Source: a virus. Taken from it: a DNA stretch of 35,264 nt. The notes below the pieces were generated by a model. That model did no database searches and was not told where the DNA came from. It saw only the letters and a list, made by a program, of their open reading frames with translations. Location: positions 1 to 35,264 of the IMG/VR virus record IMGVR_UViG_3300042484_000442; one strand, 5' to 3'. Shown here one piece after another: positions 1 through 12,712 of this stretch (within the stretch, counting starts at the first letter, position 1; each line of letters starts with the position of its first letter). Position numbers and translations under genes: made by a program.

Positions 1-364
1 CAGCATCAGAAAGTTCTGCTGCTTTCTTATTAGACTGAACCGTTACCGTAGGCGGAGCCATACGGTTCGTAGCCTGCAGATACAACTGTGCAGATTTAGT
101 GTCACCATCAAGAGCCTTGGCATACAACGTGTCTAGGAGTCGCTGAGTGCGCTCAGGCGACCCCTGAACTTCGTCAACCGCCTCTTTCCACTGACTGAGG
201 AATACTTCTTTCTTTTCCCATCGGCGGAGTGTCTTGACATCGACGCCTACGTGCACAGCCATCTGCTTCTTGGAGGGCGGTACACGCTCGCTAGGGGCTG
301 TGAGAAGCCAATCAAGGTACTCCTGCTGTTGGCTTGTAAGCGTCAGTTCTTCGTTCTGTTTCAT
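1..364 (-). CDS. Terminase small subunit (partial, runs off left edge)
   Basis: The reading frame starts with ATG at 362-364 on the minus strand and stays open to base 1 (121 codons). Residues about 24-45 (KKQMAVHVGVDVKTLRRWEK) form a homeodomain-like helix-turn-helix, and the following part (LLDTLYAKALDGDTKSAQLYLQATNRMAPP) is typical of DNA-recognition small terminase subunits (phBC6A51-like). The role would be to bind the packaging site and load DNA onto the large terminase. If the ends of the window join, the frame continues at the right edge and stops at 35167, giving about 153 residues and placing it just before the holin-like gene and the large terminase. No clear Shine-Dalgarno sequence precedes the ATG. 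Family assignment is from recall of the pattern, not a search. Confidence 0.72.
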   Translation of the reverse strand, partial: MKQNEELTLTSQQQEYLDWLLTAPSERVPPSKKQMAVHVGVDVKTLRRWEKKEVFLSQWKEAVDEVQGSPERTQRLLDTLYAKALDGDTKSAQLYLQATNRMAPPTVTVQSNKKAAELSDA

Positions 365-433
365 TGCTATAAAGCCGTTTCGTTACGACCACTGTGAGTG
401 GTGTTGTGAACGCAGAAAGATATGTAACGGAAT

Positions 434-457
434 GGGGGGAAGGGTAGGGATGGGGGG
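434..457 (+). other. Potential G-quadruplex motif
   Basis: Four runs of three to six G separated by two-base spacers (AA, TA, AT) lie on the plus strand in the divergent intergenic region. This meets the usual G3+ N1-7 pattern. Function is unknown; it could affect transcription start, replication start or packaging-site recognition. Confidence 0.45.
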
Positions 458-471
458 AAGGCAAGACATGT

Positions 472-500
472 CCAACCTCGCTCCTAAGAGCGAAGGTTGG
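472..500 (+). other. Leader hairpin upstream of first early gene
   Basis: The arm CCAACCTCGCTC (472-483) pairs with GAGCG-A-AGGTTGG (488-500) across a CTAA loop, with A493 bulged, giving a 12-bp GC-rich stem. It ends 37 bases before the ATG at 538 and has no T-tract after it, so a structured 5' leader is more likely than a terminator. Confidence 0.6.
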
Positions 501-537
501 CTCGCAGGCTACGAACACAGTTTCAAAAGGTAAAGAC

Positions 538-819
538 ATGGCAACGAAAAAGAAAACTGCTGCATGGCAACGCAAGGAAGGGAAAGACCCTAAAGGGGGC
601 TTGAACCGTAAAGGTGTTGCGTCTTACCGTAAAGAGAACCCCGGTTCCAAACTGCAGATGGCAGTCACAACACCGCCCAGCAAATTGAAGAAAGGCTCTA
701 AAGCAGCCAAGCGACAGAAGAGTTTTTGTTCCCGTATGGGTGGCATGCCGGGACCAATGAAAGACGAAAAAGGTAGACCAACCCGCAAGGCTCTTGCCTT
801 GAAGAAATGGAACTGCTAG
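538..819 (+). CDS. DUF6321-like conserved hypothetical protein
   Basis: A 93-residue, strongly basic protein. The segments AAWQRKEGKDPKGGLNRKG (about 8-26), a central VTTPPSKLKKGSKAAKRQKSF and the C-terminal RMGGMPGPMKDEKGRPTRK are the conserved blocks I associate with DUF6321, a family seen in aquatic phages and viruses. No function is established that I know of; high charge suggests nucleic acid or virion binding, as inference. An AAAAGG SD-like sequence precedes the ATG. Its stop overlaps the start region of the next gene, so the two are probably translated together. Confidence 0.75.
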   Translation: MATKKKTAAWQRKEGKDPKGGLNRKGVASYRKENPGSKLQMAVTTPPSKLKKGSKAAKRQKSFCSRMGGMPGPMKDEKGRPTRKALALKKWNC

Positions 820-1211
820 TGGCGTACACAAACCCAGCCAAACGAGAAAGAATCAAAAACAGAATCATGGCTGGTTCCAAAGGTGGCAAACCCGGACAAT
901 GGTCAGCACGCAAAGCACAACTACTAGCCTCAGAATACAAAAAGGCTGGCGGTGGTTACTCTGGTGCCAAAACAGCAGCCCAATCGAGTCTCACAAAGTG
1001 GACTGGAGAAAAGTGGCGCACATCAGATGGCAAACCAGCACAACGTGCAGGTGGCACAACACGCTACCTACCAGACAAAGCGTGGGACAAACTAACACCC
1101 GCCCAAAAGTCCGCCACCAACAAGAAAAAGATAGCCGCATCCAAGCAGGGTAAGCAATTTGTGGCAAACACAAAGCCAGCAAAACAGGCTGGCAAACAAG
1201 CACGTTCATAA
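807..1211 (+). CDS. DUF5872-like conserved hypothetical protein
   Basis: A basic protein of up to 134 residues. The pattern YTNPAKRERIKNRIM ... GGKPGQWSARKAQLLA .. YKKAGGGY ... SLTKWT...W.TSDGKPA.R ... RYLPDKAWDKLTPAQK is what I recall for DUF5872, found in phages and large DNA viruses. Function unknown. The start is uncertain: ATG at 807 overlaps the previous gene by 13 bases, while GTG at 819 shares one base with its stop codon and would begin VAYTNPAK, closer to the family start. Ends with a Lys/Ala-rich tail. Confidence 0.75.
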   Translation: MELLVAYTNPAKRERIKNRIMAGSKGGKPGQWSARKAQLLASEYKKAGGGYSGAKTAAQSSLTKWTGEKWRTSDGKPAQRAGGTTRYLPDKAWDKLTPAQKSATNKKKIAASKQGKQFVANTKPAKQAGKQARS

Positions 1212-1232
1212 AAATAGAATAAAACCTATATT
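1205..1232 (+). promoter_or_regulatory. Possible sigma-70-like promoter
   Basis: TTCATA (1205-1210) and TATATT (1227-1232) are spaced by 16 bases in an A/T-rich patch right after the DUF5872-like gene and before the gene at 1486. This is a by-eye match only. Confidence 0.25.
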
Positions 1233-1239
1233 ATATAAG

Positions 1240-1256
1240 GAAAAGGTACCCTTTTC
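1240..1256 (+). terminator. Candidate terminator hairpin
   Basis: A perfect 7-bp stem GAAAAGG/CCTTTTC with a 3-base loop, followed by TTCTTCT. It lies downstream of the two basic DUF proteins. Stem and T-rich tail are modest, so this is tentative. Confidence 0.35.
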
Positions 1257-1334
1257 TTCTATCCCCCACCCCCTTTCTAGAAAATCAGTTGTACGGCTCT
1301 GTCTTATCGCCATCCTTTTAATCGCTGGGTACCC

Positions 1335-1351
1335 GGGGGGGCCACCCTCCC
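1335..1351 (+). other. G-tract hairpin
   Basis: G7 (1335-1341) faces CCCTCCC (1345-1351) across CCA; all seven pairs form with one G-U. No T-run follows. Purpose unknown; similar G7 tracts recur at 8435-8451 and 7990-8008. Confidence 0.4.
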
Positions 1352-1485
1352 CTCTGTCCTGTGCACGCAAAAGCCCAATGAAACGAGCCTTATTCGCAAC
1401 AAGCCCATTTCGCAAATGTGACCCCACAATAGATACAGAAGGCAAGTCCACAAGGGCTAGTCATACATAAACAAACGGAGAACCT

Positions 1486-1644
1486 ATGAGTGTGCAATAC
1501 GAAGATGGAACGATAATGAGTGACGAAGAAGTAGATGCAATGGTGCTACTTGTAAAGCGTGGCGAACTAATCACTAAAGAAACTGTGCGAGCAATTGCGT
1601 GGGCTTGCGTTGAGCATGGTGTCTTTGGTTGTCATTGCGATTAG
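1486..1644 (+). CDS. Small hypothetical protein, 52 aa
   Basis: An acidic 52-residue protein (begins MSVQYEDGTIMSDEEVDAMV, ends with GVFGCHCD). GGAG (1477-1480) precedes the ATG at 1486 by 5 bases, after an A/C-rich leader. Not recognised. The stop codon is followed 18 bases later by the first of the six AACTGATA hairpins, so it appears to be a single-gene unit. Confidence 0.65.
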   Translation: MSVQYEDGTIMSDEEVDAMVLLVKRGELITKETVRAIAWACVEHGVFGCHCD

Positions 1645-1662
1645 TAATTACTTAGTACCAAT

Positions 1663-1690
1663 GCAAACTGATAGATGCGTATCAGTTTGC
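1663..1690 (+). repeat. Stop-associated hairpin, copy 1
   Basis: The arm GCAAACTGATA (1663-1673) pairs perfectly over 11 bp with TATCAGTTTGC (1680-1690) around a GATGCG loop. This is the longest stem of six copies that all share the exact core AACTGATA-N6-TATCAGTT. It follows the gene ending at 1644 and has no long T-run, only TTTGCGTTGTC. Confidence 0.85.
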
Positions 1691-1697
1691 GTTGTCT

Positions 1698-1732
1698 AGT
1701 GAGTAATCACTCGGCGTGTTACCGACTAACAC
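1698..1732 (+). other. Tandem leader hairpins before gene at 1758
   Basis: AGTGA-GTAA-TCACT (1698-1711), a 5-bp stem with a GNRA-type loop, is followed by GTGTTA-CCGAC-TAACAC (1716-1732). Both lie between the stop-associated hairpin and the A/C-rich SD region, so they would be in the 5' leader of the next gene. Confidence 0.5.
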
Positions 1733-1757
1733 AAATACAAACACAAGGAGAGCCATC

Positions 1758-2282
1758 ATGGCAACATCAAAGAAGAAGAGCAATGCAAAGGCAAAGACAA
1801 CATCAAAGACTGACTTCCGTCTAGTCCATGAGAAGAAGATAAAGGCTGGCACTAAAACTGAACTAGAAGGTTGGTTAGGTGCGGCGCAAGAGTGCATTAC
1901 CGATTACAAGTCAGTTGCAAGTCGTTACGCAAACGCTTCACTGTCTGCAACCGTTCCTGCAAGTGACGGTAAAGCGGTAAGCACTTTGCACTCAACGGAC
2001 ACTATCCGTCAGTATGTCGGTATCTGCGTTACCGCCATCAAGAAAGAGGGCGGTGTTGATGAAGTAGTTGCACGACTGAATAAGGAATACGGCTACGCAA
2101 ATATTTCAGACTTGCGTGTGTTTTATTCGGGTAAGGGACAGCGTGGCAAGACTGACAAGAAGAAGCAGAAGCCTGCAAAGAAAGTTGATACAACCGTTCT
2201 ACGCAAGAAGATGAAGAATGCTGGAGTTCCACAGCGTTACATTGACTTGACATTGTTCATCATTGAGAACGAAGGCAAATAA
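1758..2282 (+). CDS. Lys-rich hypothetical protein, 174 aa
   Basis: The start is ATG 1758 with a strong AAGGAGAGCCATC leader; an upstream in-frame start at 1716 would run through the leader hairpins. The protein has a basic N-terminal 20 residues, a central helical region including GWLGAAQECITDYKSVASRYAN, then IRQYVGICVTAIKKEGGVDEVVARLNKEYGY, a basic linker (KGQRGKTDKKKQKPAKK) and a C-terminal helix. This looks like a small nucleic-acid-binding protein, but I do not recognise the family. The TAA stop (2280-2282) overlaps the second AACTGATA hairpin. Confidence 0.75.
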   Translation: MATSKKKSNAKAKTTSKTDFRLVHEKKIKAGTKTELEGWLGAAQECITDYKSVASRYANASLSATVPASDGKAVSTLHSTDTIRQYVGICVTAIKKEGGVDEVVARLNKEYGYANISDLRVFYSGKGQRGKTDKKKQKPAKKVDTTVLRKKMKNAGVPQRYIDLTLFIIENEGK

Positions 2283-2302
2283 CTGATAGACATCTATCAG
2301 TT
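2281..2302 (+). repeat. Stop-associated hairpin, copy 2
   Basis: AACTGATA (2281-2288) and TATCAGTT (2295-2302) pair around GACATC, where GA/TC could extend the stem to 10 bp. Two bases of the preceding TAA stop are in the left arm. Confidence 0.85.
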
Positions 2303-2355
2303 GTAACTCTGTGTGAGTTACCGCAACATCATGTGACCCTCTGCATGGTGTTGCG
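2303..2355 (+). other. Two leader hairpins before the gene at 2404
   Basis: GTAACTC-TGTGT-GAGTTAC (2303-2321) is a perfect 7-bp hairpin immediately after copy 2. Directly after it, CGCAACATCATG (2322-2333) pairs with CATGGTGTTGCG (2344-2355) over 12 bp with one G-U. Three stacked hairpins thus precede the A/C-rich SD region of a 62-residue membrane protein. Confidence 0.6.
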
Positions 2356-2403
2356 TCATGTTCACACAAGTGGGCAATACAAACAACAAACAAGGAGATA
2401 GTT

Positions 2404-2592
2404 ATGAATTGGTTCGGGTTATTTACTATGGCAATGATTGTGGTGCTCGCAGTTTGGGGCTTCGCATTTGAGTTTGGTTACGAGAAAGCAGAGAAGGATT
2501 GGACTGTGAGCAAGGAATGGCTTGACCGTCTGGAAATGGAAAATCAGAATTGGTCTAAGCGTAATCACCCAACTAACAAGGACTGGAACTGA
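2404..2592 (+). CDS. Small membrane protein, 62 aa
   Basis: One hydrophobic segment at residues about 5-23 (GLFTMAMIVVLAVWGFAF) is followed by a charged, Trp-rich tail (KAEKDWTVSKEWLDRLEMENQNW). This suggests a single-pass inner-membrane protein with the tail in the cytoplasm; family not recognised. AAGGAG (2393-2398) is a good ribosome binding site. The TGA stop lies within the left arm of hairpin copy 3. It could be a host take-over, superinfection-exclusion or lysis-modulating peptide, which is speculation. Confidence 0.7.
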   Translation: MNWFGLFTMAMIVVLAVWGFAFEFGYEKAEKDWTVSKEWLDRLEMENQNWSKRNHPTNKDWN

Positions 2593-2608
2593 TAGACCTC
2601 TATCAGTT
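2587..2608 (+). repeat. Stop-associated hairpin, copy 3
   Basis: AACTGATA (2587-2594) pairs with TATCAGTT (2601-2608) around GACCTC; it continues with TTCG. The left arm contains the TGA stop of the preceding gene (2590-2592). Confidence 0.85.
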
Positions 2609-2650
2609 TTCGTACACAAACAAACACACAAACAGAAAAGAGAAACAGAC

Positions 2651-2902
2651 ATGAAATCGATATTTATTCTTTATTGGGACATATTTCTAGGGACTGATTA
2701 CGGTATTGACCTGCATCCAAAGTTCTTTACAAGCAGAGAGAGTGCATCTGCATTTGCAGAACAATTTTTCTCTGAGAACAAGCAGGTAATCTTTGATTGG
2801 TCTGATGAAGAAATACTTGAGGCAATCGCAGATGGTGTTGAGCCAGAGCGTTTTACTTGGAATAGGTTCATAAAAATACTGGAGATGGGAGAACAGCAAT
2901 GA
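2651..2902 (+). CDS. Small hypothetical protein, 83 aa
   Basis: ATG 2651 follows an A/C-rich leader containing AGAAAAGAGAAAC; upstream in-frame codons would read through hairpin copy 3 and are rejected. The protein begins with a short hydrophobic stretch (MKSIFILYWDIFLG) and then SRESASAFAEQFFSENKQVIFDWSDEEILEAI, an acidic helical body. Not recognised. It ends MGEQQ because the SD of the next gene (GGGAGAACAGC) is its last codons; the stop and next start overlap as ATGA. First gene of a coupled run of small ORFs to 3859. Confidence 0.7.
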   Translation: MKSIFILYWDIFLGTDYGIDLHPKFFTSRESASAFAEQFFSENKQVIFDWSDEEILEAIADGVEPERFTWNRFIKILEMGEQQ

Positions 2903-3018
2903 AAAAATGCAAAGAGTGTGGACAGAAAAACCAATATGGTTATCACAGTCTGAATTGCAAAGTAATCACTTCTTATTGGACAAAAGCATTAGCACAACTA
3001 AAAGGAGAACAGAAATGA
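2899..3018 (+). CDS. Zinc-knuckle-like microprotein, 39 aa
   Basis: This short frame starts at ATG 2899 in an ATGA overlap with the previous stop and ends in another ATGA overlap. Cys4, Cys7, His16 and Cys20 form a C-x2-C-x8-H-x3-C pattern suited to binding one zinc ion. The C-terminus reads AQLKGEQK. An SD (GGGAGAAC) lies 5 bases upstream. A nucleic acid or protein adaptor is plausible; function unknown. Confidence 0.65.
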   Translation: MKKCKECGQKNQYGYHSLNCKVITSYWTKALAQLKGEQK

Positions 3019-3164
3019 CTAGTAGTTACATCAAGATGCAACTCAAGCAAATCAGAGCGACATTGGATAATGCTGAGACTGACATTGACTTGTTGCGTGA
3101 AGAAAATGAGCGTCTGCAGAAGATGCTTGATGCAATACGAGCAGAACTAGGAGAACAGAAATGA
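3015..3164 (+). CDS. Coiled-coil microprotein A, 49 aa
   Basis: Starts at ATG 3015 (ATGA overlap, SD AAAGGAGAACAGAA). Residues about 9-44 are a leucine-zipper-like coiled coil (TLDNAETDIDLLREENERLQ and following). It is clearly related to the 54-residue protein at 3695-3859: both share YI, I..TL..A...I..L..ENE.L...L and a terminal EQ. It ends in GEQK, encoded by the SD of the next gene. Probably a dimeric adaptor; no known family recognised. Confidence 0.7.
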   Translation: MTSSYIKMQLKQIRATLDNAETDIDLLREENERLQKMLDAIRAELGEQK

Positions 3165-3538
3165 ATTATTACATCAGTTACACGGTCAATAACAGATACG
3201 TGAATTACAAAAACAACAGCGAACTTGATGATGATGATGACTATTATCCACAAAATCTTGGTGGTCGCAGACCAAACAATGGTGAGTGGAATGATTACAT
3301 CAGTGAAGAACAGGCGTTTTATTTGTCTGGTCTAATGGATGGAAGCATCAGCACTAACAAGAAGAAACCACAACGACATCATACGCCTGATGAAATTGTG
3401 GAAATGCTTGAGCATTATGATGTTCTAAGAAAACAAGGCGCAGACAAGAACACGGCGTTTTGGTGCTTGGGTATTAGTGAGTCGACATATAGAAAATGGA
3501 AGAAGTTTCACAAACAACTAAAAGGGGAACAGAAATAA
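3161..3538 (+). CDS. Small HTH protein, 125 aa
   Basis: ATGA overlap with the previous gene. The N-terminal half is acidic and aromatic (SELDDDDDYYP). The C-terminal half, from about residue 75, resembles the helix-turn-helix of transposase/resolvase OrfA proteins: DEIVEMLEHYDVLRKQG, then TAFWCLGISESTYRKWKKF as turn and recognition helix. Likely a DNA-binding regulator encoded among the early microproteins. It ends KQLKGEQK; the junction to the next frame is GGGGAACAGAAATAA, so the expected ATGA is replaced by ATAA. Confidence 0.65.
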   Translation: MNYYISYTVNNRYVNYKNNSELDDDDDYYPQNLGGRRPNNGEWNDYISEEQAFYLSGLMDGSISTNKKKPQRHHTPDEIVEMLEHYDVLRKQGADKNTAFWCLGISESTYRKWKKFHKQLKGEQK

Positions 3539-3564
3539 ATTACATACAGGACTTCAAGTTATTC

Positions 3565-3702
3565 ATGGATAAACATGAACTAACAAAAGAACAAGAGATG
3601 CAACTTATCCAACTGATAATGAATAAGCATTACCACAAATGTGGTAAGTGCAACTGGTGTAAGAGAAACAAAACAGAAAACAAGGGAGAAACAAATGAAT
3701 GA
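3565..3702 (+). CDS. Cys-rich microprotein, about 45 aa (start uncertain)
   Basis: The frame ending at 3702 has a C-terminal HKCGKCNWCKRNK motif (C-x2-C-x2-C), suggesting metal binding, preceded by a helix (LTKEQEMQLIQLIMNKHY). The first ATG with a reasonable context is 3565, but no strong SD is adjacent. By analogy with its neighbours, translation could begin at the ATA at 3535-3537, directly after GGGGAACAGA, adding ten residues (INYIQDFKLF). It overlaps the start of the next gene by 8 bases. As with the 39-residue protein, it is followed by a coiled-coil microprotein. Confidence 0.5.
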   Translation: MDKHELTKEQEMQLIQLIMNKHYHKCGKCNWCKRNKTENKGETNE

Positions 3703-3859
3703 CATATACATCTCACGCATGATGCAGAACATCAGCGTGACATTGGCTGAGGCAACACGGGAAATACTCAGGTTGCAAGCAGAGAATGAAAAATTGAAAG
3801 ACTTACTGGGCTTTGCTATTGTAAAGACAGGTGATGTGAACGCAGAGCAATCAGCGTGA
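3695..3859 (+). CDS. Coiled-coil microprotein B, 54 aa
   Basis: ATG 3695 has SD AAGGGAGAAAC. Residues about 8-40 form a leucine-zipper-like helix (ISVTLAEATREILRLQAENE). Paralogue of the protein at 3015-3164, so the pair Cys-rich microprotein plus coiled coil appears twice in this run. The stop is followed 14 bases later by hairpin copy 4. Confidence 0.7.
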   Translation: MNDIYISRMMQNISVTLAEATREILRLQAENEKLKDLLGFAIVKTGDVNAEQSA

Positions 3860-3871
3860 ACAACGCTCATA

Positions 3872-3897
3872 CAAACTGATAGATGTGTATCAGTTTG
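3872..3897 (+). repeat. Stop-associated hairpin, copy 4
   Basis: CAAACTGATA (3872-3881) pairs with TATCAGTTTG (3888-3897) over 10 bp around GATGTG. It is nearly identical to copy 1 including flanks, and closes the microprotein run. Confidence 0.85.
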
Positions 3898-3901
3898 CGT
3901 G

Positions 3902-3963
3902 GGCGAGAGTGCATCAGTGTCCCCCATACATTGGTGCATTCTCGCCTATGGCTTCGGCTATGG
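3902..3963 (+). promoter_or_regulatory. Structured leader of the amidoligase gene
   Basis: GGCGAGAGTGCA (3902-3913) pairs with TGCATTCTCGCC (3935-3946) over 12 bp with one G-U and a 21-base loop. It is followed by a hairpin with a C-UUCG-G tetraloop (3946-3963, CTATGGC/GCTATGG with two G-U pairs), sharing or abutting C3946. Then comes an A/C-only stretch and AAGGAGGG before the ATG at 4001. The arrangement resembles the leader before 2404. It may stabilise the mRNA or act as a regulatory leader; it matches no riboswitch class I know. Confidence 0.55.
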
Positions 3964-4000
3964 GGCAAATACAAACAAACAACAAACAAGGAGGGCTATC

Positions 4001-5056
4001 ATGCCTGCAAGTGAAGAAGAAGAACCAACATACATTGAGTGCCACAACTGTGGTGACACAATGGAACAAGACGACGCCTACAGCAACGAGTGGGACAGCG
4101 CTTATCGCTGTTGCGGTTGCAATGAGGATTTCGTCTGCGAAATGGAAGAGCAACAGAACGAAGATGAAGACGACAGTTTGATTATGTCGTACTCATCTAA
4201 GCCGTCACCAATCTTCCTCAATGATGATGGGCATAAGTCGTATTATGCAAGCGTCATTGACAGCAACACCTCAAGCCGTACACCTTTGTACATGGGCTTT
4301 GAGTTGGAGTTGGAGACTGGTCGTTTCCCTCGTGAAGATTGTGCACGTTTCGTGCTTGACACAATCAACACACAGAGCAACGACATTGTGTATCTCAAAG
4401 AAGATGGCTCACTCAATCATGGGTTCGAAATTGTTTCGCACCCAATGACATTGGGCTTTGCAACTAATCACTTTGATTGGAACGGTATCTCTGGTCTAAT
4501 CAAGAAAGGTTGCAAGTCGTGGGACACAAGCACATGTGGTCTGCATGTTCACTTGTCACGCTCTGCATTCCGAGACGAAAAGCATCTATTCAAGTTCTTC
4601 AAGTTGATACTTGATAACTCTGCAGATGTAAAGCGTTTCGCAGGTCGTGACAGCGAGCGTTGGGCTAACTTTGACAAGTCCTACTTCCTCAACTCATGGA
4701 ATGATTATGATGTTGATGGCAACTATGTCACTCGCACGACTTCTTCGTTGATGAAGTTCGCTAAGAACGAGGAACGCAACAACGAGCGTTACTGTGCTGT
4801 GAACTTGCAGAACCGCCACACTGTTGAGTTGCGTTTCTTCAAGCCATCACTCAACCCCAAGACTGTTCAGGCTGCCTTGCAGTTCTGTGATGCAGTCTTT
4901 ACTTACACCGAGACAGAGTGTGACACTAAGAAAGTTATGTCTGGCAACGCTTTGGCGTTCCGTTCATTCCGTTCATGGGTCAAGACGCAAGAGCGTTATT
5001 CCATTCTGTCTGACCGTATCGCAGAGCGTTGCTCTTCTCACGGTGACGACAACTGA
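4001..5056 (+). CDS. GS-fold amidoligase (Amidoligase_2-like) with N-terminal zinc ribbon
   Basis: 351 residues from ATG 4001 (AAGGAGGG SD; a longer frame to 3899 crosses the leader hairpins). Residues 14-46 hold CHNC ... CCGC ... C, a zinc-ribbon-like segment, then an acidic linker. The catalytic part shows the hallmarks of COOH-NH2 ligases of the glutamine-synthetase fold: GFELELE (99-105), YLKEDGSLNHGFEIVSHP (131-148), CGLHVHLS (179-186) and NRHTVELRFF (271-280), providing acidic and His/Arg residues for ATP-Mg and carboxylate. Such enzymes join an amine to a carboxylate through an acyl phosphate. The next gene is a class II glutamine amidotransferase, a plausible ammonia source. The substrate is unknown: cell-wall peptide, a host protein or a small metabolite are options. 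The TGA is inside hairpin copy 5. Confidence 0.85.
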   Translation: MPASEEEEPTYIECHNCGDTMEQDDAYSNEWDSAYRCCGCNEDFVCEMEEQQNEDEDDSLIMSYSSKPSPIFLNDDGHKSYYASVIDSNTSSRTPLYMGFELELETGRFPREDCARFVLDTINTQSNDIVYLKEDGSLNHGFEIVSHPMTLGFATNHFDWNGISGLIKKGCKSWDTSTCGLHVHLSRSAFRDEKHLFKFFKLILDNSADVKRFAGRDSERWANFDKSYFLNSWNDYDVDGNYVTRTTSSLMKFAKNEERNNERYCAVNLQNRHTVELRFFKPSLNPKTVQAALQFCDAVFTYTETECDTKKVMSGNALAFRSFRSWVKTQERYSILSDRIAERCSSHGDDN

Positions 5057-5072
5057 TACATGTCTATCAGTT
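5051..5072 (+). repeat. Stop-associated hairpin, copy 5
   Basis: AACTGATA (5051-5058) and TATCAGTT (5065-5072) around CATGTC, the only loop not starting with GA. It contains the TGA stop (5054-5056) of the amidoligase gene and lies between it and the amidotransferase gene. Confidence 0.85.
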
Positions 5073-5121
5073 TCCTAACAACACAAATCAAAACAAACAA
5101 CAAACAAGAAAGGAACACAAT

Positions 5122-6129
5122 ATGTGTTTACTAACATTCATTCCTGATTATGTCTCTCCTGACATGGACAGGTTCAAAGTTGCAGCCAAAGCCAATCCAG
5201 ATGGTTTCGGTTTTGCAATATCAACAGGCAAGACCATTGTGACTTGCCACAGCATGAACTTCGATGAAGTTGCAAACAAGTTCACGGACTTGCGTCGCAC
5301 ACATCAAGGACCTGCTGTGTTTCACTTCCGTTGGGCAACTCACGGTAGCGAGACTGTTTCTAATTGTCACCCATTCTTCTTGGGTAAAGACAACCAATCA
5401 GTCGTTGGTCACAACGGCATACTTCCAGTTGCAATACCAAAGGGTGATACTCGTTCGGACACAAAAGTGTTTGCGCAAGACATCATGCCTAGCGTTGGTG
5501 GCATCACTTCACTTGATAATGATGATTACTACAAGAAACTAGAAGCATGGGCTACTGGTTCTAAGTTGGTATTCCTCACCACTCATGATGAAGCCAAGCA
5601 AGACTGGTACATTCTCAATGAGAAGTCTGGTCACTGGGATAAAGATATGTGGTGGTCTAACTATTCATACGAGGAAGTCACTTACAAGCCTTACGCTGGC
5701 ACTTCATATAAGTCCAGTGGCAGTCTTTGGGGTTATGACGATTGGGATTACAGTTACGGTCGCACGTCATACGCTTCGTCATGGGATAAGCAAGACAATG
5801 GTCTAATCATTCCTGATTATGATGACGAACTCGAATATCTTGCAGAAGAACAGATGCAACAGTTCAATGTGTTCACTACACACATTGACGACACGACACA
5901 ACTCATTGAGTGTTACAACTGTGCTCACGCACATAAGACACCAGATGGTGTTATGGAAACTCATTGTGATGAGTGCGGTGGTTGTCACTTCTGTGGTGCA
6001 CAGTATCCATGTGCTTGTTGGTCTGCCATCTATCAGATTTACGACCTTGAGGCATTCAATGACGACATCTACGCTGCAAATGCCGTAGTTGTTCCAACTC
6101 AATCAACCACTCACCCAAGTTACAACTAG
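5122..6129 (+). CDS. Class II glutamine amidotransferase (Ntn hydrolase) with C-terminal Cys-rich segment
   Basis: 335 residues. Cys2 directly after Met is the expected N-terminal nucleophile. Further family motifs are NPDGFGFA (25-32), FRWATHGS (69-76), NCHPF (81-85) and VVGHNGI (94-100), matching the glutaminase half of GlmS/PurF-type enzymes, which hydrolyse glutamine and release ammonia. A Tyr/Trp/Ser-rich linker follows (about 190-230), and residues about 263-300 contain around ten Cys plus His (CYNC, CDECGGCHFCGAQYPCACW), probably binding zinc. There is no synthase domain in the chain, so it should work with a separate acceptor, most simply the upstream amidoligase. SD AAAGGAAC precedes ATG 5122 after an A/C-rich leader. 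Confidence 0.88.
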   Translation: MCLLTFIPDYVSPDMDRFKVAAKANPDGFGFAISTGKTIVTCHSMNFDEVANKFTDLRRTHQGPAVFHFRWATHGSETVSNCHPFFLGKDNQSVVGHNGILPVAIPKGDTRSDTKVFAQDIMPSVGGITSLDNDDYYKKLEAWATGSKLVFLTTHDEAKQDWYILNEKSGHWDKDMWWSNYSYEEVTYKPYAGTSYKSSGSLWGYDDWDYSYGRTSYASSWDKQDNGLIIPDYDDELEYLAEEQMQQFNVFTTHIDDTTQLIECYNCAHAHKTPDGVMETHCDECGGCHFCGAQYPCACWSAIYQIYDLEAFNDDIYAANAVVVPTQSTTHPSYN

Positions 6130-6136
6130 GAGAAAC

Positions 6137-6271
6137 ATGAACTGTAAAAAGTGTAGTGACGAGTTATATACGCTTCACGAAATGGATGAGTATCAAATGT
6201 GTGATGCTTGTTACTGTGAGGTATTTGACCCAGCAAACAAAACAAAAACAAAAACAGGAGAAACAAAATGA
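6137..6271 (+). CDS. Zinc-ribbon microprotein, 44 aa
   Basis: ATG 6137; the SD TAGGAG overlaps the amidotransferase stop, so translation is coupled. Cys3-x2-Cys6 and Cys22-x2-Cys25 (with Cys27) form a zinc-ribbon pattern (MNCKKCSDEL ... MCDACYC), followed by a Lys/Thr tail encoded by an A-rich SD region. Located directly after the amidoligase/amidotransferase pair, whose members carry similar Cys-rich segments; it may share a partner or substrate with them (inference). Confidence 0.7.
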   Translation: MNCKKCSDELYTLHEMDEYQMCDACYCEVFDPANKTKTKTGETK

Positions 6272-6420
6272 AAAATAAAACCATTGACGGTTACAAGTTT
6301 CGCACAGAGTTGGCGAAACTCATACCCAATTACTACCTTGACGAAGACTATGAGGGTCAAGTCATCATTTACACAAACCTAAAAGAAACCAAAAAAGAAA
6401 ACTACAAGGAGATGAACTAA
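6268..6420 (+). CDS. Small hypothetical protein, 50 aa
   Basis: Starts in an ATGA overlap with the previous stop, with ACAGGAG upstream. Reads MKNKTIDGYKFRTELAKLIP, then an acidic patch NYYLDEDYEGQVIIYTN and a Lys-rich end. Looks like a small alpha/beta protein; not recognised. AAGGAG near its 3' end serves the gene at 6423. Confidence 0.65.
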   Translation: MKNKTIDGYKFRTELAKLIPNYYLDEDYEGQVIIYTNLKETKKENYKEMN

Positions 6421-6422
6421 TC

Positions 6423-6956
6423 ATGACAACAATCAAACTAATCCCATCAACAATGGAATTTGAGGTATCTGTAGATAGTGCCTCAATGCCATCACTATTC
6501 AGTCAGTCAATGGAGACACAAATCATTGAGGAAGTTGAGCGACAGGTAAACGGTCGTATCCCAAACTTGCAGATGGTTGTTGATGATGTGTCTTCAACAA
6601 TGATGGAAGACCGTGATTACACACGCAAGGTGCGTAACTGGGTTCTTGAAAGCATTGACTACACTCAGATTGCGAGTGAGGTTCGTGACAACATTGACTA
6701 CCAGCAACTCATTGACCTAACAGCACCGTTGTGGGAAGACGAAGCGTTCTTGCGTCATCTGATGAACAACAATCGTTTCAGAAATCTTGTCAATACTCAA
6801 TGCACTTCAATTATCACTGGAACACTCAACACAACGTTCATCAAAGAGATGGTTGATGACAAGGTTGAGTCAATGACCAGCAATCTTTCTAACGAGATTG
6901 CAGAGAAAGTGCTCAAGGTTATTCAGAACCGATTGACAGCGGGCTCAGATGTTTGA
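6423..6956 (+). CDS. Helical hypothetical protein, 177 aa
   Basis: ATG 6423 with AAGGAGATGAACTAATC upstream. The protein is acidic and mostly helical (IIEEVERQVNGRI, YTRKVRNWVLESIDYTQIAS, TFIKEMVDDKVESMTSNLSN), suggesting a long helical bundle or coiled coil. No membrane segment or motif. Not recognised. Overlaps the WhiB gene by 8 bases. Confidence 0.75.
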   Translation: MTTIKLIPSTMEFEVSVDSASMPSLFSQSMETQIIEEVERQVNGRIPNLQMVVDDVSSTMMEDRDYTRKVRNWVLESIDYTQIASEVRDNIDYQQLIDLTAPLWEDEAFLRHLMNNNRFRNLVNTQCTSIITGTLNTTFIKEMVDDKVESMTSNLSNEIAEKVLKVIQNRLTAGSDV

Positions 6957-7200
6957 GCCTGTGACTGTAGACTTCACTAGAGCAAAGTGTAAGTCCCAAC
7001 CAACTGTGTGGTGGTTTCCAGAATGGCCACCTACAAAACAGAAAATGAAAGAATGGAAGCAAGCGAAAGCAATTTGCTCTGAATGTTCCATGAAAGTTGA
7101 GTGCCTTGCCTACGGTAAAGCAACCAACTCATGGGGCATTTGGGGTGGTATCACACTAACCAACGGCAAAGCCGACTACAGAAAGAATAAAAAGAAATGA
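6949..7200 (+). CDS. WhiB-family iron-sulfur transcriptional regulator
   Basis: 83 residues with the four cluster ligands Cys14, Cys43, Cys46 and Cys52, the WWFPE segment (21-25) and the diagnostic turn GIWGG (63-67), followed by a short basic tail. WhiB proteins bind a 4Fe-4S cluster and act by contacting the principal sigma factor of actinobacteria; phage copies can redirect or repress host transcription. The family is restricted to actinobacteria and their phages, so it is the best host marker in the window. Overlaps both neighbours (8 bases upstream, ATGA downstream), so it is part of the 5122-8371 unit. Confidence 0.92.
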   Translation: MFEPVTVDFTRAKCKSQPTVWWFPEWPPTKQKMKEWKQAKAICSECSMKVECLAYGKATNSWGIWGGITLTNGKADYRKNKKK

Positions 7201-7730
7201 ACACAGCAATTACATACACAGAAAAGTTTGAGCAAACTCTCAGAGAGATTGACCAAGCAGTAACAAGCAAGGTGGAAAGTCTGACCACAGACCCATTCAA
7301 CTTAGGCAAATCAATTTTGTTTGCTGTTGATTATGTTCGTGGTGAAGTCCCGGCAATCAAGAACATTGATGAGCAGGGAGACATCTACGAAATGCTCGAC
7401 GATACATTGAATGCTGTCAGGTTGTTCAGCATGGGTTACAACGGCTTTGCTGTTGTGACTACAGGTTGGGCTTCACCGATTGATAAAGACAATGATGCAA
7501 ACAATGAAATTGCACCATCACAACACCCTGAACGTAAGCGTGTTCGTCTTATGACAATGTGCCATAACGGAAAAATGGGTTCGTCTATCCGATTTACGGA
7601 CAGCGAAAACGTTACATACGACGAAGGTAACGCAAAAGGCTCATTAGCAAGTGCCATGCAAGACATGTACGACGTTGTTCGTGCGCTGAAAGTCTCATCC
7701 GCAAAAGAAAATGAAAGGCAACTACCGTGA
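7197..7730 (+). CDS. Conserved actinobacterial/phage hypothetical protein, 177 aa
   Basis: ATGA overlap with WhiB. The central block GFAVVTTGWASPID ... PSQHPERKRVRLMTMCHNGKMGSSIRF resembles a conserved hypothetical family I associate with actinobacteria and actinophages (G-W-A-x-P, then P-S-x-H-P-x-R-x-R-V-R-L). No function known. The N-terminal 70 residues are helical. Its stop overlaps the next GTG start (GTGA). Confidence 0.75.
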   Translation: MNTAITYTEKFEQTLREIDQAVTSKVESLTTDPFNLGKSILFAVDYVRGEVPAIKNIDEQGDIYEMLDDTLNAVRLFSMGYNGFAVVTTGWASPIDKDNDANNEIAPSQHPERKRVRLMTMCHNGKMGSSIRFTDSENVTYDEGNAKGSLASAMQDMYDVVRALKVSSAKENERQLP

Positions 7731-7948
7731 GCAATCGCAAAGATGAACCAACCCTTGAGGTGACACTAACTCTTTCTGAGTTACGTGCTGTCGTCAAGTC
7801 TCTGGCTATCGGCGTAGACCAACTGGCAAAGAAAACCCAGCGTCTAGGTGATGGTCGGAGAGCCGACTCAACTCATGCAGAGTTGGAAGAACTTCTGTCC
7901 GCTAAAGGCGAGATGGAAGAAGTCCTATTGGAAGCACTAAGGGGGTAA
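7727..7948 (+). CDS. Small helical hypothetical protein, 73 aa
   Basis: GTG start at 7727 overlapping the previous TGA. Composed of a beta-like start (EPTLEVTLTLSELRAV) and a long charged helix with heptad leucines toward the end (HAELEELLSAKGEMEEVLLEAL). Its final codons, TAAGGGGGTAA, provide the SD for the TTG start at 7952. Not recognised. Confidence 0.7.
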   Translation: MSNRKDEPTLEVTLTLSELRAVVKSLAIGVDQLAKKTQRLGDGRRADSTHAELEELLSAKGEMEEVLLEALRG

Positions 7949-7951
7949 CAC

Positions 7952-8371
7952 TTGATAGCAAAACTACTAATCTCAATTTCATTAGGTGTGGGGGGCTTCG
8001 TGCCCCCCACTTCTATTACCAAGCACGACAAGCCAGAACCAGTAGATATTTCTGCTTCTGCCTTGTGTCCTCAATGGTGGCAAACCGCTGTTGATGCAGG
8101 GTGGAGACCGTCACTACTACCGACATTGGATTATCTGATGTGGCGTGAAAGCAGGTGTGACCCTGCTCAACACAACACAGACGACCCAATGGGTGGTTCT
8201 AGAGGCTTGGTACAAATCAATGGCTTCTGGACACCGTGGCTGGCTTCTAAGGGCATTGTGAAGCGTTCTGAGGGGCTGTTTGGCCCTAAGCGCAACCTGA
8301 GGTCAGCACTTGCTATTTACAACTACGCAGACGCCCGATATGACAACGGATTTGGTCCGTGGGGTCTGTAA
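7952..8371 (+). CDS. Exported lysozyme-like/SLT transglycosylase-like protein
   Basis: TTG start with GGGGG 7 bases upstream. Residues 1-18 form a short Lys-containing hydrophobic signal-like segment. The domain from about residue 38 shows WRESRCDP with the likely catalytic Glu66, then MGGSRGLVQINGFW (80-93) and a terminal NYADARYDNGFGPW, matching the SLT/lysozyme-like fold that cleaves the glycan strand. A second wall enzyme beside the late endolysin (13764-14276), and encoded with early genes: possibly a wall-remodelling or exclusion factor, or a virion or lysis component. A perfect GC hairpin (7988-8010) lies within codons 13-20. Followed by hairpin copy 6. Confidence 0.75.
   Translation: MIAKLLISISLGVGGFVPPTSITKHDKPEPVDISASALCPQWWQTAVDAGWRPSLLPTLDYLMWRESRCDPAQHNTDDPMGGSRGLVQINGFWTPWLASKGIVKRSEGLFGPKRNLRSALAIYNYADARYDNGFGPWGL
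7988..8010 (+). other. GC hairpin inside the transglycosylase-like coding region
   Basis: GTGGGGGGC (7988-7996) pairs perfectly with GCCCCCCAC (8002-8010) across TTCGT, followed by TTCTATT. It looks like a terminator stem but lies 36 bases into a coding frame that has no later good start, so it may modulate translation or attenuate transcription. Confidence 0.6.
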
Positions 8372-8373
8372 AA

Positions 8374-8395
8374 AACTGATAGACGAATATCAGTT
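8374..8395 (+). repeat. Stop-associated hairpin, copy 6
   Basis: AACTGATA (8374-8381) and TATCAGTT (8388-8395) around GACGAA, starting 2 bases after the TAA of the transglycosylase-like gene. This is the last copy; none was seen in the replication or late regions. Confidence 0.85.
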
Positions 8396-8418
8396 CTGAC
8401 CACCCCAGCATTCCCTCT

Positions 8419-8492
8419 CATTGTCTGTCACAATGGGGGGGAAAGGGGGGGTCTAGCCAGTAGTTATGCGCCTGTTGCTTAGGCAACGGCGC
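8419..8492 (+). promoter_or_regulatory. Structured leader of the replication module
   Basis: Three elements lie between hairpin copy 6 and the start at 8530: CATTGT-CTGTC-ACAATG (8419-8435), two G7 tracts separated by AAA (8435-8451), and a strong hairpin GCGCC-T-GTTGC (8468-8478) with GCAAC-GGCGC (8483-8492), a 10-bp stem with one bulged T and a TTAG loop. An A/C-rich segment and AAAGGAAAAAC follow. This 158-base gap (8372-8529) is the likely expression boundary between the early and replication units. Confidence 0.5.
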
Positions 8493-8529
8493 AAACATGT
8501 ACGTACACAAAAACAAACAAAGGAAAAAC

Positions 8530-9402
8530 ATGAGAATAGAAAACAGTACTGGGACTAGTAGCGCAACAAAAGTATTTATCCGCCAGTCATGGCTTGGTGA
8601 TGCTTTGATGTGCCCCGAACGAGCAAGACTCACAGCGTTACACCCTGAAACACGAAAAGAAAACGACTCGGCAATGATGGGCACGGCTGTGCACGCAGGG
8701 ATTGAAAATTATCTGCGTGCAGAGATTGACATACAAGACATTGCCGAACGCTCTGTTTTCGCTTTTCGCACCAAAGAAGCGCATCTCAAGGCTGAAGGCA
8801 AGTCAATCAACATCACCAACACAGACCCAAAAAACTGGGACAAACACATTGCATCAATGGCAGAAGCATGGGCACGAGACATCATGCCTCATGTTCCTGA
8901 AGGTGGCGAGTGTGAGTACAAGTTTGCAACTAAGGTTGCGAATGTGGACAACGAACTGTTTGAGTATGAACTCTGGTTTGAGGGCACGATGGATTACTTC
9001 CACCCGAAAGGTATTTGGGACTGGAAGACAGCGGCTCGAAAGTATTATCAAGCGGAGAAGCAAACACAGAATGTTCAGTCATCTGTGTACGCAGAAGCAT
9101 CCCATGCAATGGGGATGATTGAGTACCCGGTTGAATTCAATTTTGGTGTTATGATTAGGAACGCTTCGTCAACAGGACAAATCGTTTCTATTACACGAAC
9201 ACCAGAACACGGTCAATGGATAATTGACCAAACAATCGCACTCGTCAACAACCTGTTGACGGTTCAAGCGAAAATGCCATCAACACGATGGATAGTAAAT
9301 GACCAGCATTACCTATGCTCACAGCGTTGGTGTCCTGTATGGTCAATGTGCAAAGGCTCGTACATCACGAGCGAAACAACAAATGCCGAGGAGGCAAACT
9401 AA
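8530..9402 (+). CDS. Fe-S RecB/Cas4-like PD-(D/E)XK exonuclease
   Basis: 290 residues from ATG 8530 (AAAGGAAAAAC SD; an earlier in-frame ATG at 8497 has no SD). Nuclease motifs in order: GTAVHAGIENYL (His motif I, about residues 51-62), FEGTMDYF with Asp155, WDWKTA with Asp164 and Lys166, and QNVQSSVYAEA (Q/Y motif). Cys28 together with Cys263, Cys268 and Cys274 matches the split four-Cys iron-sulfur cluster of AddB/Cas4-type enzymes. The likely role is end processing in replication or recombination. First gene of a tightly packed DNA module; its stop overlaps the next start as TAATG. Confidence 0.88.
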   Translation: MRIENSTGTSSATKVFIRQSWLGDALMCPERARLTALHPETRKENDSAMMGTAVHAGIENYLRAEIDIQDIAERSVFAFRTKEAHLKAEGKSINITNTDPKNWDKHIASMAEAWARDIMPHVPEGGECEYKFATKVANVDNELFEYELWFEGTMDYFHPKGIWDWKTAARKYYQAEKQTQNVQSSVYAEASHAMGMIEYPVEFNFGVMIRNASSTGQIVSITRTPEHGQWIIDQTIALVNNLLTVQAKMPSTRWIVNDQHYLCSQRWCPVWSMCKGSYITSETTNAEEAN

Positions 9403-9860
9403 TGGATAAAGACAGAGCAATCATCACCCAAGTCTCAGCAAAAATCGCTGCAGACCTCACCAACAAGACCACAGATGTAGACGCCCGTTTGGGTGAGTTT
9501 GCAACTTTGTTCTCATCAATCAACGAAATCATGATGGACACCATTTACGGTGGCACAACAAACAGTCAGGCAGTCCAGCAGAACACCGCTGTGATTAGCA
9601 TGTTGAAGCAAGAACTAGGTGCTGAAGAAGTTCAAGCACCAGCGAAGCAGTTCTCTTCTTCATCATCTTCCTCAACTGCAACTGTGACCGTAAAAGGAAC
9701 ACAGCATGGTCCACTTCCAGACTGGCTCATCAAGGCTTGCAAGCGTGACGGTGTAACCGTTGTGTACGACAACCGTGATGGTCTAGCCGAGAATCCAAAG
9801 CGCCCTTCATTCCGTGCAGTAGATGCGGAAAAGGCTTACTGGCCACCACGAGCCAAGTAA
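9402..9860 (+). CDS. Conserved actinophage hypothetical protein of the replication module, 152 aa
   Basis: The N-terminal part (1-80) is helical (AIITQVSAKIAADL ... INEIMMDTIYGG), followed by a Ser/Thr-rich linker (SSSSSSSSTATVTV) and a C-terminal domain HGPLPDWLIKACKRDGVTVV-YDNR ... NPKRPSFRAVDAEKAYWPP. I recall this C-terminal domain following Cas4-like nucleases in other actinophages. Function unknown; the linker plus small aromatic C-terminal domain would fit a DNA- or ssDNA-binding accessory, which is a guess. Starts in a TAATG overlap and ends in one. Confidence 0.7.
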   Translation: MDKDRAIITQVSAKIAADLTNKTTDVDARLGEFATLFSSINEIMMDTIYGGTTNSQAVQQNTAVISMLKQELGAEEVQAPAKQFSSSSSSSTATVTVKGTQHGPLPDWLIKACKRDGVTVVYDNRDGLAENPKRPSFRAVDAEKAYWPPRAK

Positions 9861-10888
9861 TGCGACTATCAGCAGAAGAAATATCTGCTGGCTGGGAGAA
9901 TGTGGGGCGACCATCCGCGGTCGCTCCACAACTCTCTGAGTACCGAATGTACACACCTCTTTCAGAAGCGGCTGACTCATTTGTGCGTTGGGCACAGTCA
10001 CCGCAAGACAGAGTACATCTTGGTATCGGTCGGATAGATAAAGAACTACGAGGCATTGCACCGGGCGAAATTGCCATGATGTTGGGATTTGCACACGGCG
10101 GTAAGACACTCTTACTGCTTCATGCACTTCGCAACAACCGTGACAAACACATTGCAATGTTCATACCTGACGAGCCACGCCAACTCGTATTGACCAAACT
10201 CACCTGTATGCATCATGGAATTGATGCACGAGAACTGGAAGCACGTGTTGCAGCCGATGACCAAGAAGCCATTGACTTGCTACGCCGAACAGCAGAGGAA
10301 GATTTTCCAAACCTCGCTGTGTTTGACCAGCCACTGACAAGTTCCGACATGGAACGTGCCTACGGTGAAGTTTGTGATGTGTGGGGACAAGTACCTGAAC
10401 TGGTTGTGGTTGACTACCTAGACCTAGTTGAAGCAGGGGAAACAGTTCCAGACAAAGCAACCTTCCTCAAAGGATTCGGTCGTCGGCATGATGTGCCGAT
10501 TCTCGTGTTGCACCAAACATCACGCCATGCTGGCGCTGATGGTGCGAAACTCACCATGTCATCTGGTTCATTCGGTGGAGAACAACAAGCAACATCAATC
10601 ATCGGTGTCCGTCGCAAGAAATATCAGATTGCGCACGAGATGTACGAACTGATTGAGAAACTTGACCGTTCACATTCAGAGCGTGCACAAGACAGGCTCG
10701 AATTGCTACGCCATGAAGCCAAGGTGCACGAACACACAGTCACCGTGTCACTACTCAAGAACAAACGACCAGCAGGGCAACTTGTTGACGACATTGACTT
10801 TGAGTTAGACACAGCAACTGGTCGTCTTCGTGAACTAGATGGTGAACTGCCAGAGCAATACCTGCAGATGGGGATGGCTTATGACTGA
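9860..10888 (+). CDS. RecA/DnaB-like (SF4) helicase or ATPase
   Basis: 342 residues. Walker A is GFAHGGKT (76-83), preceded by a DnaB-type GIGRIDKELRGIAPGEIAMM. Walker B is ELVVVDYLDLV (about 185-195), and LVLHQTSRH resembles the motif-3 Gln-containing strand of replicative helicases. There is no separate N-terminal primase-interaction domain, so it is a short, single-lobe form; the phage primase is on a separate chain directly downstream (8-base overlap). Predicted to be the replicative helicase; a RecA-like recombinase is the alternative. Confidence 0.85.
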   Translation: MRLSAEEISAGWENVGRPSAVAPQLSEYRMYTPLSEAADSFVRWAQSPQDRVHLGIGRIDKELRGIAPGEIAMMLGFAHGGKTLLLLHALRNNRDKHIAMFIPDEPRQLVLTKLTCMHHGIDARELEARVAADDQEAIDLLRRTAEEDFPNLAVFDQPLTSSDMERAYGEVCDVWGQVPELVVVDYLDLVEAGETVPDKATFLKGFGRRHDVPILVLHQTSRHAGADGAKLTMSSGSFGGEQQATSIIGVRRKKYQIAHEMYELIEKLDRSHSERAQDRLELLRHEAKVHEHTVTVSLLKNKRPAGQLVDDIDFELDTATGRLRELDGELPEQYLQMGMAYD

Positions 10889-11777
10889 AGTAGAGATGTT
10901 CAAGACACTGTTTGAAGGTCGCACAGATGCTTACGGGACTTGGGAAGGTGGTGCTGTCAAGTCAGTTGTGACCGCAGAAACATTTGCCAATCATCTCAAT
11001 GGCAAAGAACTCATTGGTATCTACCCGCTCACACTTGGAAACACAGTCAAGTGGGGGTGTTCAGATATTGATGTTGATGACATTGACTCTGCACGCAACC
11101 TACAGACAGCACTAATGGTCAAAGGCATACCATCATTCGTTGAGAAAACCCGCAAGGGTTTTCATGTGTGGGTGTTTGCCAGCGACTGGATATCTGCGGC
11201 AGTAATGCGTAGAGCATTCCTGTCGGCACACGAAGCCATTGGTTTACCGCCAAAGGAAGTCAATCCAAAGCAAGAAGAAACAACCGGACTTGGGAACTAT
11301 GTTCGCTTACCGTATCCAAACGGTATGCATGTGATTCCAGAGAATCGTTATATTCTTTTTGATTCAGATGATGTTCCGATGACGCTCAGTACTTTTCTAA
11401 ACTCTGCTTTGATAAGCAGGGTTTCTGTAAAGACGCTGTTGCCATTGGCAGAGATGCACAGACCAAAGAGCAAGGCACAACTTGACAACCTTCCAGTTGG
11501 TGTTTCCGTTCAGGAAGCACTTGACCATGTTGATGGATATGTTGCAACCATCTGGAGGCACGGACCTCTCGATGGAAGCGACAGGTCAACAACGCTGGTC
11601 AGGATGGTGCACAAGATGCGCAACCTAGGTACTCCAATGAACCATGCATATGTAATACTCGTTGACGCTGACAAGCGTTGGGGAAAGTTTCATCTGCGTA
11701 CTGATTCAGTAGAACAGTTAGTGAAGATAGTTGAAGACGTTTACGGATTAGATACGACTGGAGCATTTAGACCATGA
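10881..11777 (+). CDS. AEP-type primase (TOTE/PrimPol-like)
   Basis: 298 residues from ATG 10881, overlapping the helicase by 8 bases. The N-terminal motif FEGRTDAYGTW, then IYPLTLGNTVKWGCSDIDVDD with the catalytic pair Asp62/Asp64, FVEKTRKGFHVWVFA with His95, and PKQEETTGLGNYVRLPYPNG match archaeo-eukaryotic primases of the group found in TOTE systems and in actinophages. These make primers and in some families also extend DNA. No DnaG-type zinc motif is visible. Since no DNA polymerase gene is recognisable, primer-polymerase activity here is of interest. Confidence 0.85.
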   Translation: MTEVEMFKTLFEGRTDAYGTWEGGAVKSVVTAETFANHLNGKELIGIYPLTLGNTVKWGCSDIDVDDIDSARNLQTALMVKGIPSFVEKTRKGFHVWVFASDWISAAVMRRAFLSAHEAIGLPPKEVNPKQEETTGLGNYVRLPYPNGMHVIPENRYILFDSDDVPMTLSTFLNSALISRVSVKTLLPLAEMHRPKSKAQLDNLPVGVSVQEALDHVDGYVATIWRHGPLDGSDRSTTLVRMVHKMRNLGTPMNHAYVILVDADKRWGKFHLRTDSVEQLVKIVEDVYGLDTTGAFRP

Positions 11778-12130: not shown

Positions 12131-12186
12131 TAAAAGTAATGTTTGTTCTTGGCGCACTCATAATCGCAACTGTGTTGTTCACATGA
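12127..12186 (+). CDS. Putative 19-aa membrane microprotein
   Basis: A 20-codon frame precisely bridges RusA and the next gene, with an ATGA overlap at each end (12127-12130 and 12183-12186). It encodes MIKVMFVLGALIIATVLFT, which is one full-length hydrophobic helix. GGAGAAGGC lies just upstream as SD. The precise coupling at both ends supports real translation, though it is below usual gene-calling limits. Role unknown. Confidence 0.5.
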   Translation: MIKVMFVLGALIIATVLFT

Positions 12187-12617: not shown

Positions 12618-12702
12618 TGCAAAACTTTGTTGTTGTGTTTATCGTGGGGTAGTTCCACGTAATCCATCCTGTGGAGATAAGCCAGACGACTTTGAAGAAT
12701 AG
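12610..12702 (+). CDS. Cys-rich microprotein, 30 aa
   Basis: The ATG at 12610 lies inside the end of the nuclease gene (8-base overlap). It encodes MSNAKLCCCVYRGVVPRNPS followed by CGDKPDDFEE. Three adjacent Cys and one more could bind metal. No strong SD is present; support comes from the compact, gap-filling position only. Confidence 0.4.
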   Translation: MSNAKLCCCVYRGVVPRNPSCGDKPDDFEE

Positions 12703-12712
12703 AGAAGTATCG

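Follow-up and report, generated by a model that had tools for sequence, protein, structure and literature searches.

What do two adjacent genes predicted to encode a COOH-NH2 ligase and a stand-alone glutaminase do in the genome of a freshwater phage? They are found in a 35.3-kb virus record, whose whole length of 35,264 nucleotides is hereafter called the window. The left part of the window carries the early and replication genes on the + strand, with products including an exonuclease, a DnaB-like helicase, a primase, RusA and a sigma-like protein. The virion genes, coding for the terminase, the portal and the major head protein, are on the - strand in the right part. That side also codes for a 2,687-residue protein (14278-22341, - strand) that has no Pfam match and takes up nearly a quarter of the contig. 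Searches of positions 1-14000 against Rfam gave no match. A WhiB-like gene (6949..7200, + strand; PF02467, E=4.8e-10) is part of the context, outside the pair. As whiB has been described as confined to actinobacteria and serves as an actinophage marker (PMC10202952, PMC6802176), its presence indicates an actinobacterial host.

The first gene of the pair (4001..5056, + strand) starts with an ATG at 4001, immediately preceded by AAGGAGGG, ends with a stop codon at 5056 and codes for a protein of 351 residues. A purine-rich ribosome-binding site precedes each of the two ORFs. A first-pass annotation had proposed that the pair consists of a ligase of the glutamine synthetase (GS) fold and a class II glutaminase. 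We found both ORFs, adjacent to each other, and all the motifs that it had quoted, those of the ligase being GFELELE (residues 99-105), CGLHVHLS (179-186) and VELRFF (275-280). The ligase matches PF12224 (Amidoligase_2) with E=2.1e-7 and 31.5 bits, above the curated cut-off of 22, and phrog_16683 with 6e-32; 53 of the 58 aligned ligase members match PF12224 at E<=0.01. Its AlphaFold model, built from 58 sequences, has a pLDDT of 91.5. Foldseek analyses of this model returned only members of the GS superfamily at E<=0.001 (best hit 7e-5, probability 1.00), namely GS, YbdK and its Salmonella homologue, plant glutamate-cysteine ligase and gamma-glutamylmethylamide synthetase, followed closely by PafA and Dop. 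The TM-scores are low (0.3-0.4), which makes the ligase a remote member of the superfamily. No PDB chain matched it by sequence, and a scan of bacterial genomes with the ligase alone yielded zero relatives. At least 518 relatives were found in a scan of viral contigs, many of them on phages with a WhiB gene.

The catalytic core motifs of the ligase (4295..4837, + strand) are G99-x-E101-x-E103, D135, S137, E143, H182-x-H184, T274 and E276-x-R278. They are invariant in all 58 members, as is G141. A profile alignment to Escherichia coli GlnA places CGLHVHLS on GSGMHCHMS and VELRF on IEVRF, with an E-value of 0.0096 and an hhalign probability of only 4% against this single GlnA sequence. The GlnA counterparts of the HxH and ExR motifs in this alignment are H269 and E357/R359 (E. 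coli numbering without Met), which are known metal and substrate ligands of GS. With the core positions invariant and the HxH and ExR motifs in register with GlnA, nothing points to a dead enzyme. Thus, by its sequence and predicted fold, the protein is a member of the GS superfamily, with ExE, GxHxH and ExR positions of the metal/ATP type. Both genes of the pair are under purifying selection, with dN/dS values relative to near relatives of 0.17-0.30 for the ligase and 0.08-0.14 for the glutaminase.

Six contigs code for a second, shorter ligase paralogue (~216-271 residues) upstream of the pair (L017:3134-3940, L018:3617-4423, L021:3632-4447, L023:3145-3957, L029:3742-4392 and L155:3593-4309; L024 is a near-copy of L023). 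It has no Cys module but has kept the ExE, HxH and ExR motifs. Its absence from the window indicates that it is not required.

The second gene (5122..6129, + strand) starts with an ATG at 5122, 65 nt after the ligase ORF, has its stop at 6129 and codes for 335 residues. Its product matches phrog_25883 (3e-39). With PF13230 (GATase_4), it scores 19.9 bits, 3 below the cut-off of 23; all 57 aligned family members match that profile at E<=0.01, the best at 2.5e-9. When the family profile was compared with PDB sequences, GlmS came first (1.6e-8), and EgtC was not listed at E<=1. GlmS was also the best match of the model by fold (1.5e-7), with EgtC in a second tier (1.2e-4). The predicted glutaminase domain (5122..5661, + strand) harbours the nucleophile Cys2, FRWATHGS (residues 69-76), VVGHNGI (94-100) and Asp113. 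Cys2, Arg70, Thr73, Gly75, Asn98, Gly99 and Asp113 are invariant in 57/57 glutaminases, and His74 is present in 54/57. This is the complete active-site set of GlmS (R-x-x-T-H-G, N-G and D). The assignment of the second gene product as a class II glutamine amidotransferase, a predicted glutaminase, is therefore well supported. Both enzyme assignments of the first-pass annotation are thus well supported.

The annotation had also pointed to Cys-rich segments in the ligase, at its N-terminus, and in the glutaminase, at its C-terminus. They are real and conserved. The ligase module contains four Cys residues in a zinc-type arrangement (Cys14, 17, 37 and 40; 4040..4120, + strand), each kept in 52-55 of the 58 members, and is modelled with a pLDDT of 94-97 over most of its length. 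In the glutaminase, a low-confidence linker (residues 193-233) separates the catalytic domain from a folded, zinc-type module with eight Cys residues (Cys264, 267, 282, 285, 288, 291, 297 and 299; 5911..6018, + strand). Each of these is kept in 54-57 of 57 sequences, and the modelled pLDDT is ~82-92. The number of Cys-rich modules per ligase varies from one to about four, and distant ligases have up to eight CxxC motifs before the catalytic core, with one match to the Pfam LIM family. The glutaminases of phage Marvin and of plasmid pGD21-2 likewise harbour a C-terminal Cys module, and those of phiEco32 and UFV-P2, otherwise very divergent, have Cys-rich stretches at their ends. The modules look like metal-binding domains; they would bind zinc and possibly dock a partner or a substrate.

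Small zinc-ribbon-like ORFs were observed near some of the pairs. In the window, a 44-residue ORF directly 3' of the glutaminase gene (6137-6271) codes for a C-x2-C...C-x2-C ribbon. Similar ORFs of ~50 residues are present ~200 nt downstream of the pair in ~20 of 72 distant loci and in none of the window's close relatives. The idea of a small LysW-like zinc-ribbon carrier as the substrate was dropped because those close relatives have no ribbon ORF.

We determined how constantly the two genes occur together, using profile-based scans that started from the ligase side and from the glutaminase side. Among 105 further IMG/VR loci, 101 contain the pair, always in the order ligase-glutaminase and with -107 to +82 nt between the genes; the remaining four are at contig ends. 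With the glutaminase alone as bait, 47 loci were found, and all 44 contigs with upstream DNA have a ligase gene directly in front. The pairing is thus obligate in the IMG/VR contigs. As many of these loci belong to one phage lineage, independent cases count for more, and these include phages Marvin and MEP402, the records MW202733, MT835576 and MT839723, and mycobacterial plasmids (NZ_CP065286 and NZ_CP025548). The plasmids with the pair include one of Mycobacteroides abscessus. Marvin-like pairs were observed on large mycobacterial plasmids, pGD21-2 (L177:4758-6456) and a plasmid of M. paragordonae (L176), and the mycobacterial plasmids with the pair may be phage-plasmids. There are two exceptions, Bifidobacterium phage BP742P1, with a glutaminase but no recognisable ligase, and Clostridioides difficile phage AR1086-1, with a ligase but no recognisable glutaminase. 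Thus, the two proteins are not always inseparable. Ligase and glutaminase distances are correlated (r=0.89), and the partial correlation given the WhiB distance is 0.68, which indicates a correlation beyond shared ancestry. WhiB genes are close to the pair in 54 of 81 ligase clusters by profile and in 49 by neighbour clustering; the latter revealed no constant third partner beyond WhiB in the 81 clusters. None of the contrary results that the first-pass annotation had named beforehand occurred: the amidoligase match, the acidic residues (58/58) and the co-occurrence of the two genes in related phages are all present.

The early region also contains a dispersed palindrome, AACTGATA-N6-TATCAGTT, with six perfect copies of 22 bp each in the window (at 1666, 2281, 2587, 3874, 5051 and 8374) versus 0.02 expected. 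The copies are found only in this region, between genes, and often overlap a stop codon. One is upstream of the ligase gene (3874..3895, no strand assigned), and another overlaps the ligase stop codon ahead of the glutaminase gene (5051..5072, no strand assigned), with positions kept in relatives. Palindromes occupy equivalent positions in many related phages (L003, L004, L033, L036, L043, L083, L103, L104, L115, L122 and L166). Several of them share the same arms, and others have different arms that are alike within one genome. The latter genomes have 3-6 copies each, versus ~0.1 in shuffled-arm controls. These observations suggest operators or processing sites that are particular to each phage and evolve jointly with a factor. 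Moreover, a leader, ACAAACAACAAACAAG(G)A(G), is found at 2379, 3975 and 5093, just before three start codons (2404, 4001 and 5122). Together with the palindromes, this leader is reminiscent of the start-associated sequences known from mycobacteriophages of cluster K.

We consider it probable, albeit far from certain, that the pair is a split glutamine-dependent amide synthetase that acts early in infection on a carboxylate of a peptide or a protein. The two genes would code for one split enzyme. Its class II glutaminase would free ammonia from glutamine, using Cys2 as the nucleophile, and the GS-fold ligase would use ATP to activate the carboxylate of the substrate as an acyl phosphate. Ammonia, transferred from one subunit to the other, would then resolve the acyl phosphate to an amide. 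The terminal zinc-type modules of the two proteins would most likely keep the subunits in contact with each other, with a macromolecular substrate, or with both. Amidation with glutamine-derived ammonia, as the first-pass annotation had proposed, is well supported by the predicted enzyme activities and the pairing of the genes. Early synthesis is suggested by the location of the pair on the + strand, on the early and replication side and opposite the late genes, and by the immediate expression of related cassette genes in PSA-HP1 infection (PMC7082346). As to the substrate, the variable arrays of Cys modules make a protein or peptide carboxylate the best guess. Three observations count against the split enzyme: no natural ligase-glutaminase fusion was seen in the 105 further IMG/VR loci, only one of the two partners is recognisable in each of the phages BP742P1 and AR1086-1, and a related glutaminase is naturally fused in some phages to gamma-glutamylamine cyclotransferase (GGACT), which fits the removal of gamma-glutamyl groups at least equally well as a supply of ammonia. 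Our literature search found no biochemistry for this family.

What the amide synthetase would modify can be narrowed down in two ways, neither of which we regard as likely. The pair might serve for host takeover or counter-defence in actinophages. The array of Cys modules would then address a particular host protein, of which a Glu, Asp or terminal carboxylate would be amidated early, and a function or a defence of the host would be shut down. Should this hold, the wall reading would apply to no member of the family. If a host protein is indeed the target, an annotation that has been copied many times would have to be given up, and a new mechanism of phage takeover would emerge. Relatives of the pair are common among viral contigs, and Marvin in Mycobacterium smegmatis mc2 155 is a convenient system.

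The other narrowing, to which we give a similarly low probability, is a special case of the amide synthetase with a named substrate. The pair would amidate glutamate or diaminopimelate in peptidoglycan precursors, alter receptor or lysin sensitivity and block superinfection. In host cells, peptidoglycan precursors are amidated by MurT/GatD and LtsA/AsnB. Actinobacterial hosts, as indicated by WhiB, agree with such a role, and the murT-gatD genes of Staphylococcus aureus are a precedent for a two-gene ligase and glutaminase that amidates the wall (PMC3267633). The idea has been published for phage amidoligase and glutaminase genes, and later papers (PMC10580990, PMC5498523, PMC11945000) name Iyer et al. 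2009 and Hardies et al. 2013 as its source. There, the phiEco32-type genes are called a peptidoglycan-modification cassette against superinfection (PMC5498523, PMC11945000), which is repeated for the OM43 phages (PMC10580990). In the literature found, which represents the 2009 and 2013 papers through those that cite them, the peptidoglycan role of the phiEco32/LUZ24-type cassette is deduced from gene content and is putative, and a direct test was not found. The cell-wall label repeated in annotations thus goes back to genome context. Several observations speak against it. The pair is also present in phages of Methylophilales and other Gram-negative bacteria, and MurT/GatD (Mur-type and CobB/CobQ-like) belong to other families than the proteins of the window. 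Variable arrays of Cys modules, which usually dock macromolecules, would not be needed on a ligase acting on a lipid-linked precursor, and a lytic infection would leave time to alter no wall but that synthesised during it. Finally, related cassettes include GGACT or fuse it to the glutaminase. The glutamyl group required by GGACT-type enzymes must have its alpha-amine free, which is not the case in intact wall stem peptides. Therefore, the wall reading should not be taken for granted, and the larger cassettes are more likely to deal with gamma-glutamyl amines or protein side chains.

The same GGACT proteins bear on a different chemistry, which we hold to be quite improbable for the window pair. 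In it, the ligase would join the gamma-carboxyl of glutamate to an amine, which could be on a lysine or on a small molecule. The class II Ntn enzyme would remove the glutamyl group. EgtA and EgtC form such a ligase and hydrolase couple in ergothioneine synthesis. The second-tier structural matches, EgtC for the glutaminase and YbdK and glutamate-cysteine ligase for the ligase, agree with it. Gamma-glutamyl chemistry is also indicated by the natural fusions of a class II glutaminase with GGACT, annotated only as GGCT, in MW202828 (L192:4001-5218; PF06094, 7.5e-18) and phage C75C1 (L193:4001-4897; 2.7e-21), the latter with an amidoligase gene upstream, and by the GGCT of the UFV-P2 and phiEco32 cassettes. 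A GGCT-like gene is likewise present close to the glutaminase gene of StenR_269. However, the window glutaminase is closest to GlmS. GGCT (GGACT/AIG2) was found in none of 16 whole IMG/VR records, the window included, nor in Marvin or MEP402, in searches that did detect the positive controls UFV-P2, phiEco32 and MW202828. The fetched flanks of the IMG/VR pair loci contain no relatives of the ATP-grasp protein or of the separate COOH-NH2 ligase either. Moreover, a two-gene unit that installs a cap and then removes it, with nothing in between, makes little sense. Lastly, that the pair makes a modified base protecting the phage DNA is barely credible: the pair adjoins the replication genes (helicase, primase, RusA and exonuclease), but we recognised no thymidylate-synthase-like, deazaguanine or base-modifying gene in the window, and no third gene of this type was conserved across the 81 clusters.

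Compared with proteins of known function, the window ligase shares the fold and the metal/ATP-binding signature of GS, YbdK, glutamate-cysteine ligase and PafA/Dop. It differs from them by its low identity (11-14%), its N-terminal zinc-type module and, if the amide synthetase model is right, its need for an ammonia partner. The glutaminase has the Cys nucleophile and the RWATHG, HNG and Asp motifs of the GlmS glutaminase domain; in contrast with GlmS, it stands alone, and its C-terminus is Cys-rich where GlmS has the isomerase domain. It is closer to GlmS than to EgtC by both sequence and fold. The murT and gatD genes are also a co-transcribed ligase and glutaminase pair, but MurT is Mur-ligase-like and GatD is a CobB/CobQ-like amidotransferase (PMC3267633), whereas the window proteins have GS and class II Ntn-type folds and no homology to either.

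Among phages, the closest parallel is gp105-gp106 of Marvin, found with 18 further Marvin-group records, with the same gene order, 35% identity for both ligase and glutaminase, an N-terminal Cys module on the former and a C-terminal one on the latter, and no GGCT. Marvin differs in being a siphovirus, with a C-terminally extended ligase and with the pair at the genome's right end. The OM43 phages MEP401 and MEP402 (Zobellviridae) also have adjacent genes for a PF12224 ligase and a glutaminase ahead of the replication genes. However, their ligase is longer, their glutaminase has no C-terminal eight-Cys module and their host is Gram-negative. The phiEco32/LUZ24-type cassette likewise encodes, in the early region, an Amidoligase_2 protein and a class II glutaminase with a Cys-rich C-terminus. 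Unlike the window, it has an additional COOH-NH2 ligase, an ATP-grasp protein and GGCT, so that all five are encoded together in UFV-P2 and phiEco32. Its proteins are only distant relatives of the window families, as shown by the ligase profile (E 3e-7 for phiEco32 and 0.04 for UFV-P2) and the glutaminase profile (2e-7 and 4e-6, respectively). Thus, the pairing itself was already known from other phages, and the Marvin-type two-gene unit is distinct from the larger phiEco32 cassette.
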